Shown: one piece after another, positions 10,099 to 13,695 of the stretch | Numbering within the stretch: the first letter of the stretch is position 1 | Layout of the letters: each line of letters starts with the position of its first letter | NCBI GenBank assembly: GCA_030041375.1 | Contig: JASHOA010000014.1 | Span: 1-64,000, forward strand | Reading direction: 5' to 3' | DNA: 64,000 bases | From: Acetobacteraceae bacterium | GTDB taxonomy: Bacteria; Pseudomonadota; Alphaproteobacteria; Acetobacterales; Acetobacteraceae | Position numbers and translations under genes: made by a program | The notes under the pieces: model-generated | What the model was told of the DNA's origin: nothing | The model's database searches: none | Seen by the model: the letters and a program-made list of their open reading frames with translations, nothing else

Positions 10099-10680
10099 AT
10101 GAGCCATGTGCGCACCGTTGCCGTCTTCTGCGGCTCCCGCACCGGGGCGAGCCCGGCCTTCCACCGCGCCGCGGCAACCCTCGGGCGGCGGCTGGCCGAG
10201 GTTGGGGTTGGCGTCGTCTACGGGGGCGGGCAGGTCGGGCTTATGGGCGTGCTTGCCAATGCGGTGCTCGCGGCCGGCGGCCGCGTCGTCGGCGTGATCC
10301 CCGAGATCCTGATGCGGCAGGAAGTGGTGCACGGGGGACTGTCGGGGCTGATCGTCACCCGCGACATCGCCAGCCGCAAGCAGCGCATGTTCGATCTCGC
10401 CGACGCGTTCATTGCGCTACCGGGGGGTATCGGCACGCTCGACGAGACGGTCGAGATGCTGACCTGGAGGCAGCTCGGGCTGCACCAGAAGCCGGTCCTG
10501 ATCTGCGATGTCCAGGGCTCCGCCGCGCCCCTGGTTGCGTGCATCGAAACCGCGGTGGCGCAGGGCTTTGCCGAGCCTTCATTCCTCGATTTTTTCGAGG
10601 TGCTGCCGGGTGTGGAAGCCGTCCTCGCCAGGCTTCAGATGGTCCCGGTGACGAACCGCTCGAGCCAATGGACGTTGTAG
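10099..10680 (+). CDS. LOG-family protein (TIGR00730), nucleoside 5'-monophosphate phosphoribohydrolase type
   Basis: A 193-residue Rossmann-like protein. The LOG signature PGGIGTLDE is present, preceded by SRKQRMFDLADAFIAL, and the N-terminal VYGGGQVGLMG loop is intact. LOG proteins cleave nucleoside 5'-monophosphates such as cytokinin ribotides into base and ribose phosphate, but bacterial members act on several nucleotides and the physiological substrate here is unknown. The last 46 bases overlap the end of the convergent accC gene, so the extreme C-terminus of each constrains the other. Confidence 0.9.
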   Translation: MSHVRTVAVFCGSRTGASPAFHRAAATLGRRLAEVGVGVVYGGGQVGLMGVLANAVLAAGGRVVGVIPEILMRQEVVHGGLSGLIVTRDIASRKQRMFDLADAFIALPGGIGTLDETVEMLTWRQLGLHQKPVLICDVQGSAAPLVACIETAVAQGFAEPSFLDFFEVLPGVEAVLARLQMVPVTNRSSQWTL

Positions 10681-11978
10681 GTGCCGGAGGCGAATTCGGG
10701 CACGTCCACGATCTTGCGGAAGAGGGGCAGTGTCGTCTCGATCCCGATGATCGCAAATTCGTCGATGGCGCGGGCGAGCCGGGCGATCGCCTCGGCGCGC
10801 GAGCGGGCGTGCACGATCAGCTTCGCGACCAGGCTGTCATAGAATGGCGTGACGACGAGCCCCGCATAGAGCGCGGAATCGACGCGCACGCCGAGCCCGC
10901 CCGGAGAATGATAGGCGAGGATGCGGCCGGGCGAGGGAACGAAGCTGATCGGGTTCTCGGCGTTGATCCGGCATTCGATGGCGTGACCATCGAAGCGGAT
11001 GTCGGCCTGCCGGTAGCCGAGTGGCTCGCCGGCAGCGATCCGGATCTGCTCGCGCACAAGGTCGATCCCGGTGATCATCTCGGTCACCGGGTGCTCCACT
11101 TGCAGGCGGGTGTTCATTTCGATGAAGGCGAACTCTCCGTCCTGGTAGAGGAATTCGAGGGTGCCGGCGTTGCGGTAGCCGATGGCGGCGAGCGCGGAGG
11201 TGGCGAGCGTACCGAGCCGCTCGCGCTCGGCGGGCGCGAGGGCGGGGGAGCCCGCCTCTTCCAGAAGCTTCTGGTGGCGGCGCTGGAGAGTGCAGTCGCG
11301 TTCGCCGAGATGCACCACATTGCCGGCCGCATCCGCCAGAACCTGCAGCTCGATATGCCGTGGCCGATCGAGGTATTTCTCGAGATAGACGGCATCGTCC
11401 CCGAACGCGGCTCCCGCCTCGGCGCGGGCAAGGGCCAGGCGCTCGGCAAGCTCGCGCGGCCCTTGCACCACCTGCATCCCCCGGCCGCCACCGCCGGCAG
11501 CCGCCTTGATCAGCACCGGATAGCCGAACTGACCGGCGGCCGCTTCGGCGGCCCGGGCATCGGTGATCGCCCGGCTCGAGCCGGGGACCGGCAGCACACC
11601 GTGCGCCGCCATCACCCGCTTGGCCTCGATCTTGTCGCCCATCATCCGGATGTGCTGCGGTGCCGGACCGATGAAGGTGAGATCGTGTGCGGCCACCATC
11701 TCGGCGAATTCCGCGTTCTCGGACAGGAATCCGTAACCCGGGTGAATGGCATCCGAGCCGGTGATGATCGCCGCGGACAGGATGGCCGCCATGTTCAGGT
11801 AGCTGTCGCGCGCCGGCGGCGGGCCGATGCAGACGCTTTCGTCGGCGAGCCTCACATGCATCGCCTCGGCATCCGCCGTCGAGTGCACCGCCACCGTGCG
11901 GATCCCGAGTTCGCGGCAGGTTCGCTGGACCCGCAAGGCAACCTCGCCGCGATTGGCGATCAGGATCTTCTGGAACAA
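10635..11978 (-). CDS. accC: Acetyl-CoA carboxylase, biotin carboxylase subunit
   Basis: A 447-residue ATP-grasp enzyme beginning MFQKILIANRGEVALRV, the standard AccC start. The glycine-rich ATP loop KAAAGGGGRGMQVV, the substrate loop with RDCTLQRRHQKLLEE and the catalytic EMNTRLQVEHPVTE are intact. It carboxylates biotin on AccB using bicarbonate and ATP, the first half-reaction of fatty-acid synthesis. accB ends 17 bases upstream, so the two form an operon. Length is normal for the family. Confidence 0.97.
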   Translation of the reverse strand: MFQKILIANRGEVALRVQRTCRELGIRTVAVHSTADAEAMHVRLADESVCIGPPPARDSYLNMAAILSAAIITGSDAIHPGYGFLSENAEFAEMVAAHDLTFIGPAPQHIRMMGDKIEAKRVMAAHGVLPVPGSSRAITDARAAEAAAGQFGYPVLIKAAAGGGGRGMQVVQGPRELAERLALARAEAGAAFGDDAVYLEKYLDRPRHIELQVLADAAGNVVHLGERDCTLQRRHQKLLEEAGSPALAPAERERLGTLATSALAAIGYRNAGTLEFLYQDGEFAFIEMNTRLQVEHPVTEMITGIDLVREQIRIAAGEPLGYRQADIRFDGHAIECRINAENPISFVPSPGRILAYHSPGGLGVRVDSALYAGLVVTPFYDSLVAKLIVHARSRAEAIARLARAIDEFAIIGIETTLPLFRKIVDVPEFASGTYNVHWLERFVTGTI

Positions 11979-11995: not shown

Positions 11996-12442
11996 TTATT
12001 CCAGGATCATCAAGGGCTCGTCATACTCCACCGGGGTCCCCGACTGCACCAGCACCCGCACCACCTTTCCGGCGCGCGGCGCCTTGATCTGGTTGAACGT
12101 CTTCATTGCTTCCACCAGGAGCAGCGTCTGGCCGGCGCTCACCGCCTGGCCGGGTACCACGAAGGGTGGCGCAGCGGGCTCCGGAGCCAGGTAGGCGATG
12201 CCGACCATCGGGCTTTTGACCACTCCCGGATGGGCGGCGGCGTCCAGGGTTTCCTCCGCCGGCAGCGGCTCGGCGGAGGGCATCGGCGGCAAAGGCCCGC
12301 CGGCCGCCGCGGCTTGAGCCGGCTGGCGGACGACCCGGATCCGCCCCTCCTTTTCCGCCACTTCGATCTCGGTGAGCCCGGTCTCGACCAGGAGACTCGC
12401 AAGGGCGCGGATGGCGTCGGAATCGAACGGCAGTTTGCTCAC
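11996..12442 (-). CDS. accB: Acetyl-CoA carboxylase, biotin carboxyl carrier protein
   Basis: A 148-residue carrier with an N-terminal dimer region, a flexible Ala/Pro linker at about residues 41-70 and the biotinyl domain. Lys114 in VEAMKTFNQI is the biotinylation site. The small insertion (thumb) before the biotin site, YLAPEPAAPPFV, is the type seen in acetyl-CoA carboxylase carriers. It lies 17 bases before accC and 13 bases after the degenerate aroQ, matching the widespread aroQ-accB-accC operon order. Confidence 0.96.
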   Translation of the reverse strand: MSKLPFDSDAIRALASLLVETGLTEIEVAEKEGRIRVVRQPAQAAAAGGPLPPMPSAEPLPAEETLDAAAHPGVVKSPMVGIAYLAPEPAAPPFVVPGQAVSAGQTLLLVEAMKTFNQIKAPRAGKVVRVLVQSGTPVEYDEPLMILE

Positions 12443-12455
12443 CCGACACGCTCCC

Positions 12456-12800
12456 TCAGGACTGGCTATTGCTATGCCGCACCTCGACAGCCGGCAACTC
12501 GACGGCCCGGAGCGTCCCCATCAGTACGGCTGATGTCGAGGCATTCCCGCACCCGCCGTCCCACGCCACGACGGAAAGGGGGTGAGGGTGGATCACCCAC
12601 GAACAAAAGTGGGTACCGGGGATGATATCGCCCTCGCTGCCGGTCTGTCGGAAGTCGATGGCAAGCCCCGGCTCGATCGCGATCTCGGCGCAAATCTGTT
12701 CAAGATCGTCAAGGGTCTCCGTGCCATGAAGGGTGGGCTCGCCCGGCCCCGAGAGGTTCATGTCCGGGCCGTTCAGAAGCGCAACCGGCGGCAGCTCCAT
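12456..12800 (-). pseudogene. aroQ: Degenerate, truncated type II 3-dehydroquinate dehydratase (aroQ relic)
   Basis: A 114-residue open frame in the slot where aroQ sits in the aroQ-accB-accC operon. The start LPPVALLNGPDMNL, the FRQTGSEGDII region and the segment LRAVELPAVEVRHSN align by eye with type II dehydroquinases. However, the catalytic Arg and Tyr of the lid loop (usual RxP...YG) read GEPTLHG, the conserved (T/N)HTS active-site His region reads GNASTS, and the last third of the protein (after the usual EVHxSN) is missing. The part between EGDII and GNASTS is unlike the family. The protein cannot be an ordinary dehydroquinase. The frame has no internal stop, so a retained new role is possible. 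Shikimate synthesis would need another dehydroquinase elsewhere. Confidence 0.75.
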
Positions 12801-12809
12801 ATTTTGCGC

Positions 12810-12918
12810 CTAGAGCAGATCGCGATCAGACGGAATCGGCTGATCGCGTGAAGATGCTCGCCAAAACAAAGAGCTAGAGCAGTTACCGTGAGCCATGGCG
12901 AACGGAAATTGCTCTAGC
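12810..12918. repeat. Two adjacent palindromic intergenic repeats (TAGAGCA type)
   Basis: Directly upstream of the aroQ relic are two hairpin-forming units. Unit 1 (12810-12859) has perfect 9-base arms at 12821-12829 and 12840-12848. Unit 2 (12873-12918) has perfect 9-base terminal arms GCTAGAGCA and TGCTCTAGC. Both resemble the short TAGAGCA...TGCTCTA palindromes scattered between genes in many alphaproteobacteria, as I recall them. They are probably non-coding repeats rather than operators of one gene. Confidence 0.75.
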
Positions 12919-12935
12919 ACAGCCCGGGCCATTGG

Positions 12936-12957
12936 TCCAACGCCCTCGCTTGCCGCA
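12936..12957 (+). repeat. Left copy of an imperfect 22-bp direct repeat
   Basis: This 22-base stretch, starting TCCAACGCCCTCG, recurs at 13747-13768 with two C/T differences. The pair brackets the DUF4160/DUF2442 gene pair. It may be the scar of insertion or a duplication joint. Confidence 0.5.
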
Positions 12958-13055: not shown

Positions 13056-13304
13056 ATGGTTACCGTGTGGCGGGCCTACGGGCTGCGCGTGGTTATCTTT
13101 ATCGACGACCATCAGCCGGCCCATGTCCATGTTTTCGGTGACGGTCAGGCCAAGATCAATCTGCTGGGTGCCGACGGCGACCCCGAACTGGTCTGGGTGG
13201 ATGGCATGGCCCGTAGCGAAGTGCGCCGCGCCATGCGGCTCGTAAGCGAACAGCAAGCCGCGCTGCTGGCCCGGTGGGAGAAGATTCATGGCCGTCTTGA
13301 CTGA
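13056..13304 (+). CDS. DUF4160 domain protein
   Basis: An 82-residue protein beginning MVTVWRAYGLRVVIFIDDH; the DUF4160 core DDHQPAHVHVFGDGQAKINL with its His-x-His pattern is clear. DUF4160 genes usually travel with DUF2442 genes as here, and the pair is often listed as a putative toxin-antitoxin-like module, but no biochemical role is firmly known to me. The end overlaps the DUF2442 gene by 17 bases. The module sits between short direct repeats and next to palindromic repeats, which suggests it is accessory. Confidence 0.85.
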   Translation: MVTVWRAYGLRVVIFIDDHQPAHVHVFGDGQAKINLLGADGDPELVWVDGMARSEVRRAMRLVSEQQAALLARWEKIHGRLD

Positions 13305-13695
13305 TGCCGAAATTGATGCCGCAACCGACCGTGGCCGCATCGCCCGCCTCGAGGAGCCCAGGGCAGCCGCCGCGCGGTACGATCGTCGCCGCGGCCGGAT
13401 CGTCGTCGAACTGACCAACGGCTGCACCTTCAGCTTCCCGCCACGCCTGGTGCAAGGGTTGGAGGCGGCAACGGAAACAGAGCTGGCCCAGGTCGAGATC
13501 CTGGGGGCCGGCTACGGCCTGCACTGGGAAGCGCTCGACGCCGATCTTTCGGTCCCGGGCCTGCTCGCCGGCCTGTTTGGCACCAGGGCCTACATGGCTC
13601 GCCACGCCGGGCGGGCAACATCGCCAGCGAAAGCCGCGGCGGCCCGGGCGAACGGCGCCCAAGGCGGCCGCCCGTCCAAATCCGTCCGGCGCTGA
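13288..13695 (+). CDS. DUF2442 domain protein
   Basis: A 135-residue protein. The DUF2442 core runs from about residue 25 to 90 with GRIVVELTNGCTFSFPPRLV and GAGYGLHWEALDADLSVPGL. The Ala/Arg/Lys-rich tail (about residues 105-135, ending GGRPSKSVRR) could bind nucleic acid. It is translationally coupled to the DUF4160 gene by a 17-base overlap. The basic tail would suit an antitoxin-like autoregulator; this is inference. Confidence 0.85.
   Translation: MAVLTDAEIDAATDRGRIARLEEPRAAAARYDRRRGRIVVELTNGCTFSFPPRLVQGLEAATETELAQVEILGAGYGLHWEALDADLSVPGLLAGLFGTRAYMARHAGRATSPAKAAAARANGAQGGRPSKSVRR

Follow-up and report, generated by a model that had tools for sequence, protein, structure and literature searches.

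A probable aroQ pseudogene before accB-accC in an Acetobacteraceae genome that carries a second type II dehydroquinase

Introduction

In-place decay of a native gene that a second gene of different origin has displaced is a general phenomenon. For dehydroquinase, a described case is Candida albicans Aro1, whose type I dehydroquinase domain lacks an active site, a loss for which the type II enzyme Dqd1 compensates; inactive dehydroquinase forms occur in species that own a second dehydroquinase (PMC9074039). In type II dehydroquinase (AroQ), the catalytic Tyr24 and the essential Arg19 both lie in a flexible loop (PMC7144000).

Here we describe an open frame directly before accB-accC in an Acetobacteraceae bacterium, which most likely is a pseudogene within the leader of this unit rather than a gene whose protein has taken on a new task. 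As in C. albicans Aro1, a dehydroquinase active site has been lost and a second dehydroquinase is present. However, the Aro1 domain is of type I and is kept folded within an essential multi-enzyme, whereas the gene described here is bacterial, free-standing and of type II, and is both truncated and decayed. The bacterial case is a fresh example of an already known kind of event. As in other instances of decay after displacement, intact, inactivated, truncated and deleted stages are found beside a second copy; what differs is that they concern a single operon slot, in which decay spared a promoter-like sequence and, downstream, the ribosome-binding site of the next gene. Our literature searches found no work on aroQ decay beside accB or in an acc operon.

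Results and Discussion

A truncated aroQ frame without its active site precedes accB

We analyzed a 64,000-nucleotide stretch (the window) of the genome GCA_030041375.1, hereafter G000. We refer to the position directly before accB-accC as the slot. The genes at this position are:

12456..12800, minus strand: aroQ remnant, an open frame of 114 codons from ATG to TGA
11996..12442, minus strand: accB, with a GTG start
10635..11978, minus strand: accC, 3' of accB

The remnant scored 48.6 bits against the Pfam DHquinase_II profile (PF01220), for which the cut-off of membership in type II dehydroquinase is 23.3 bits. Homology spans model positions 2-102 of 138, and the location before accB-accC is that of aroQ in intact relatives. 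The C-terminal third is missing, so the frame falls short of a full-length AroQ.

To describe the active site, we used M. tuberculosis residue numbering and took 136 intact accB-linked slot copies as the reference for conservation. In alignment to these copies, the essential loop residue Arg19 is replaced by Gly, the catalytic Tyr24 by His, and His101 by Arg. The column of Asn75 holds a Trp, inside a stretch without clear aroQ origin, and Arg108 and Arg112 are gone with the deleted last third. Asn75, His101, Arg108, and Arg112, which we take to be active-site positions of type II dehydroquinase, are near-invariant in the 136 intact copies, which supports this assignment. Among all near-invariant residues that could be compared, four of six catalytic and 12 of 35 non-catalytic ones are changed. 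The first-pass annotation of this DNA had described an intact 114-codon frame just before accB that lacks the catalytic Arg, Tyr, and His and the last third; both descriptions hold, and Asn75 joins the list of losses. It had also stated that the start of the fold and two conserved strands are kept, but codons ~62-92 are more than an aroQ strand that has diverged. For annotation, it matters that an aroQ frame found open in front of accB does not count as evidence of a working dehydroquinase. With three-row alignments, AlphaFold2 reached a mean pLDDT of 38 on the remnant and 53 on a full-length control from a congener (G002, below), so we draw no structural conclusion.

The frame is a mosaic of aroQ blocks and a dispersed repeat

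Comparison with the full-length slot copy of G002 resolved the frame into an aroQ block, a piece of a dispersed repeat, and a second aroQ block. In the direction of transcription, the features in and around it are:

12914..12940, minus strand: promoter-like TTGGACC...GTGCTAG (putative role), conserved before slot aroQ in G001 and G002
12810..12917, minus strand: dispersed palindromic repeat bounded by CTAG, found here in G000 only, between the promoter-like sequence and the ATG
12618..12800, minus strand: aroQ-derived block 1, frame nt 1-183, with 79% DNA identity to the full-length G002 slot copy
12579..12616, minus strand: dispersed-repeat piece of 38 nt, frame nt 185-222
12462..12524, minus strand: second aroQ-derived block (frame nt 277-339), still read in the ancestral frame, the net gain being 18 nt
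12456..12461, minus strand: deletion junction, where 109 nt are missing out of frame in comparison with G002; the TGA is at 12456-12458
12451..12456, minus strand: AGGGAG, likely the accB ribosome-binding site

The TGA of the remnant was created at the deletion junction and overlaps the AGGGAG. In intact relatives and in G002, the likely ribosome-binding site of accB forms part of the last aroQ codons.

Both repeats are dispersed elements. The in-frame repeat has 48 matches in G000, 64 in G001, and nine weak ones in G002; genome searches returned no matches in G003 or G004. The CTAG palindromic repeat matches at least 40 places in G000, 44 in G004, 17 in G003, and 13 in G001, with no match in G002. 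The element from which the 38-nt piece derives (L066, L067, L068) is ~120 bp long, begins GTACCCACTTT, contains an inner hairpin, and has complementary-looking ends. Codons 68-93 also match a Rhodanobacter frame (L063), presumably methyltransferase-like; the match consists of a single short motif, which we took as chance. Further upstream in G000, a DUF4160 and DUF2442 gene pair (13056-13695, plus strand) lies between thiS and the aroQ remnant. This pair is absent from that place in G001, where thiS is directly upstream.

Relatives within the genus represent stages of decay

Four further genomes of the window's genus were informative. G001 (MAG JASHOF01, Acetobacteraceae bacterium JOPF016), a sister species, has the same remnant, with 93.6% DNA and 87% protein identity to that of G000, as well as a second aroQ. 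G002 (MAG JAKAWQ01) carries a full-length slot aroQ without Arg19 and His101, plus a second aroQ. The slot copies of G003 and G004 are intact, which answers a search for intact copies in sister species that had been proposed at first pass. A second aroQ was not found in G003 or G004, an absence that is provisional given a genome completeness of 77% and 87%, respectively.

Both the inserted repeat and the 3' deletion occur in G000 and G001, and the Arg19-to-Gly change is common to G000, G001, and G002, so that it is most simply older than the split of these three. Since the insertion and deletion are shared with G001 and the Gly with G002, the decay is not very recent. We therefore rejected recent single-step decay, as the lesions occur in two species and start before the G002 split. 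Of the earlier suggestion of recent decay, decay itself stands and great recency does not. That G000 is a draft of 95 contigs raises the question of an assembly or binning artefact, but the same structure in an independent MAG, at the DNA identity given above, indicates that the frame is not an assembly error and makes this explanation next to negligible.

The remnant evolves under relaxed selection

The remnants of G000 and G001 differ at 22 of 342 nt. The maximum-likelihood (ML) pairwise omega is 0.665, a point estimate below 1 from just 22 substitutions, and is indistinguishable from 1 (2dL 0.64) and clearly above 0.1 (2dL 16.5). For the same pair of genomes, ML omega is 0.198 for accB, 0.036 for accC, and 0.287 for the second aroQ. 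The NG86 method gave the same order, with values of 0.79 for the remnant, 0.30 for accB, 0.06 for accC, and 0.45 for the second aroQ.

We also fitted a branch model to the genus, with the topology set by hand. The background had an omega of 0.042. Omega was 0.10 on the three-species stem, 0.07 on the G002 branch, 0.126 on the remnant stem, and 0.485 on the remnant tips. These values are rough, since older branches come close to saturation at synonymous sites. An omega of 1 was not rejected for the tips (2dL 1.32), was marginal for G002 (2dL 3.47), and was disfavored on both the three-species stem (2dL 4.41) and the remnant stem (2dL 8.67). Thus, older branches of the slot lineage were still constrained and the decay was not neutral from the start, while by both the pairwise and the tip estimates the remnant itself shows relaxed selection. 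A test of selection on the frame had been proposed at first pass, and its outcome is an omega not different from 1.

One counterpoint to decay is that no stop arose in the frame despite the inserted repeat and the substitutions that followed: it is uninterrupted in both G000 and G001, though shortened by the out-of-frame deletion. However, when we simulated 22 random substitutions under neutrality (5000 runs), the frame was still open in 57-60% of runs, so its openness is no evidence of selection.

These data bear on two alternatives to a pseudogene. First, the frame could encode a 114-residue protein with a new function of its own, as an open frame in two species with 87% protein identity and an omega estimate below 1 might suggest. 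We consider this very improbable, given that omega is indistinguishable from 1 and far above the values for accB and accC, that the core contains a dispersed repeat and non-aroQ residues, and that a third of the non-catalytic near-invariant residues (12/35) are changed. The new role that the first-pass annotation had offered as an alternative to decay finds no support, given an omega not different from 1, the repeat within the frame, and an openness that chance gave in 57-60% of simulated runs. Second, translation of the frame could act as a relay, in which ribosomes prevent premature transcription termination and are handed over to accB, the peptide itself being irrelevant. In its favor, the frame is open in two species despite the repeat insertion, its stop overlaps the likely accB ribosome-binding site, and accB starts 13 nt downstream of the TGA. 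Against it, openness is expected by chance in the proportion of runs given above, and in G000 a repeat parts the promoter from the ATG. Together with evidence from other genomes, described below, this leads us to regard a relay as improbable. A pseudogene, whose product presumably has no function, fits these observations better.

A second aroQ of another lineage probably displaced the slot copy

Whether the genome holds another aroQ or an aroD had been raised at first pass. A second aroQ is present on contig 43 of G000 (G000:C43:11359-11766); it scores 196 bits, and all active-site motifs that we checked are intact, from which we infer that it supplies dehydroquinase activity. No match to PF01487, the profile used to search for aroD, was found in G000. 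Since an intact second aroQ is present and no aroD was found, the remnant looks dispensable. In view of the second copy we rejected loss of the pathway step, and in view of the lack of a PF01487 match in G000 we rejected replacement by a type I enzyme. In both G000 (L038) and G001 (L035, contig 167), a frame that resembles an inosine-uridine nucleosidase comes after the second aroQ.

In a tree of 43 proteins, all 18 slot sequences formed one clade (support 100/99). The second copies of the family fell outside it, in a clade with support 84/81; in this tree the label 'K' also covered L256 and L010, both of which belong elsewhere. Therefore, the second aroQ represents another lineage and is not a recent duplicate of the slot copy. 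The 43 proteins included no identifiable donor.

We consider it highly probable that the frame is a pseudogene of the original aroQ, which decayed in place after displacement by the second aroQ. The original aroQ of the family would have stood at the head of an aroQ-accB-accC unit. Selection on it would then have been weakened by another type II dehydroquinase, of a different lineage and located elsewhere in the genome; that this gain preceded the decay is the likely order of events. The simplest course is that Arg19 was lost while the lineage was still shared with G002. Later, in the ancestor that G000 and G001 have in common, a dispersed repeat probably inserted in the middle of the gene and 109 nt were lost at its 3' end, and in G000 alone a further repeat would have entered between the promoter and the ATG. 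Because accB and accC need them, the promoter-like sequence and the ribosome-binding site of accB presumably survived, and the leader is probably still transcribed. The remaining frame may be open mainly by chance, owing to GC-rich sequence and short time.

Altered slot copies accompany further aroQ matches across the family

Across 152 genomes from the family, we examined the sequence directly ahead of accB. Where a genome had one PF01220 match (57 genomes), the slot aroQ was intact in 56, altered in none, and absent in one. Where it had two or more (95 genomes), the slot copy was intact in 80, altered in five (G000, G001, G002, G010, and G358), and absent in ten (Fisher p 0.0055 for slot state against one or at least two matches, a count of matches that includes a divergent AroQ-like family). 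Because dehydroquinase is needed, a genome with one copy has little scope to lose it; what matters is that loss accompanies a spare copy. A second copy alone does not cause decay, since 80/95 multi-match genomes retain an intact slot copy. Identity as the second type was checked by sequence for part of the genomes, which excludes G296 and G224 (slots without aroQ). The count leaves out genomes with no accB match (G258, G332, G400, G392, and G424) or with accB at the edge of a contig (G008, G088, G214, and, with sequence not taken, G238, G226, and G243), as well as G021 (region before accB not taken).

Another genus, g73, shows a similar range of slot states. Among its 33 genomes, 11 have a slot-type copy, ten of them intact and one (G358) dead, and 22 have the second type, including five of the 11 with a slot-type copy, G358 among them. 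Slots in g73 are intact, active-site-dead, frameshifted, or without aroQ, and the latter three states accompany the second aroQ type. The slot aroQ of G438 (L258, upstream of accB) is a frameshifted pseudogene, an independent case in a genus other than the window's. Nine further g73 genomes have no aroQ in the slot, and all nine have the second type. In these nine, thiS or thiG is still upstream in eight, TTGGACC is visible in five, and a GGAGGA site precedes accB in eight, indicating that what lasts is the front of this operon, along with the ribosome-binding site for accB. Both the frameshift in G438 and the nine genomes in which accB has no preceding aroQ argue against the relay. In G391, the last aroQ codons may persist before accB (tblastn E 0.5). 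A short 60% match in G392 was rejected as a slot remnant, as it is a second-type fragment at a contig edge.

In one operon slot, states of an essential-pathway gene can be compared that range from intact through active-site-dead, truncated, and frameshifted to deleted, with a second gene beside them. The slot also reveals what decay spares, namely the operon's front and the site at which ribosomes bind for the downstream gene.

Some full-length slot copies lack catalytic residues on branches of low omega

Altered slot copies were chosen by loss at active-site positions, and the comparisons that follow are to be read with this selection in mind. The slot AroQ of G358 (L106, L227; beside accB) is full-length, with changes at four of eight catalytic and none of 48 other near-invariant positions (Fisher p 0.0002, computed after picking sequences by catalytic loss). 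Its branch omega is 0.074, and an omega of 1 was rejected (2dL 10.4). In G010, whose genome holds further aroQ copies, the slot AroQ (L043, L092; beside accB) is also full-length, with a rewritten catalytic loop and loss of Tyr24 and Arg108. Near-invariant changes number 2/8 catalytic and 1/48 other, and omega is 0.071 (2dL 66) on a saturated branch. For G002 the counts are 2/8 and 4/48, with its low omega (0.07) following a likely earlier loss of Arg19.

Such dead full-length copies reflect either late catalytic loss on long branches or a fold kept for another purpose. A constrained pseudoenzyme is possible for G358; G010 and G002 point the same way more weakly. More generally, a displaced slot AroQ might, before it decays, pass through a selected-pseudoenzyme stage, in which the active site is lost while the fold persists to serve some non-catalytic role linked to accB-accC; the window's frame would be the late wreck of such a protein. 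We regard such a stage as rather unlikely; if the constrained dead copies in other genera are true pseudoenzymes, they could be used to ask why aroQ lies next to accB. The window's remnant is unlike the constrained dead copies because its changes are spread over the protein.

The divergent AroQ-like family included in the count of PF01220 matches is represented by L255 and L256 (G432 and G435). These proteins have about 35% identity and a GAGMNMRG motif, with Thr or Val in place of Arg19, Phe in place of Tyr24, and Ser in place of Arg112, and may have another function.
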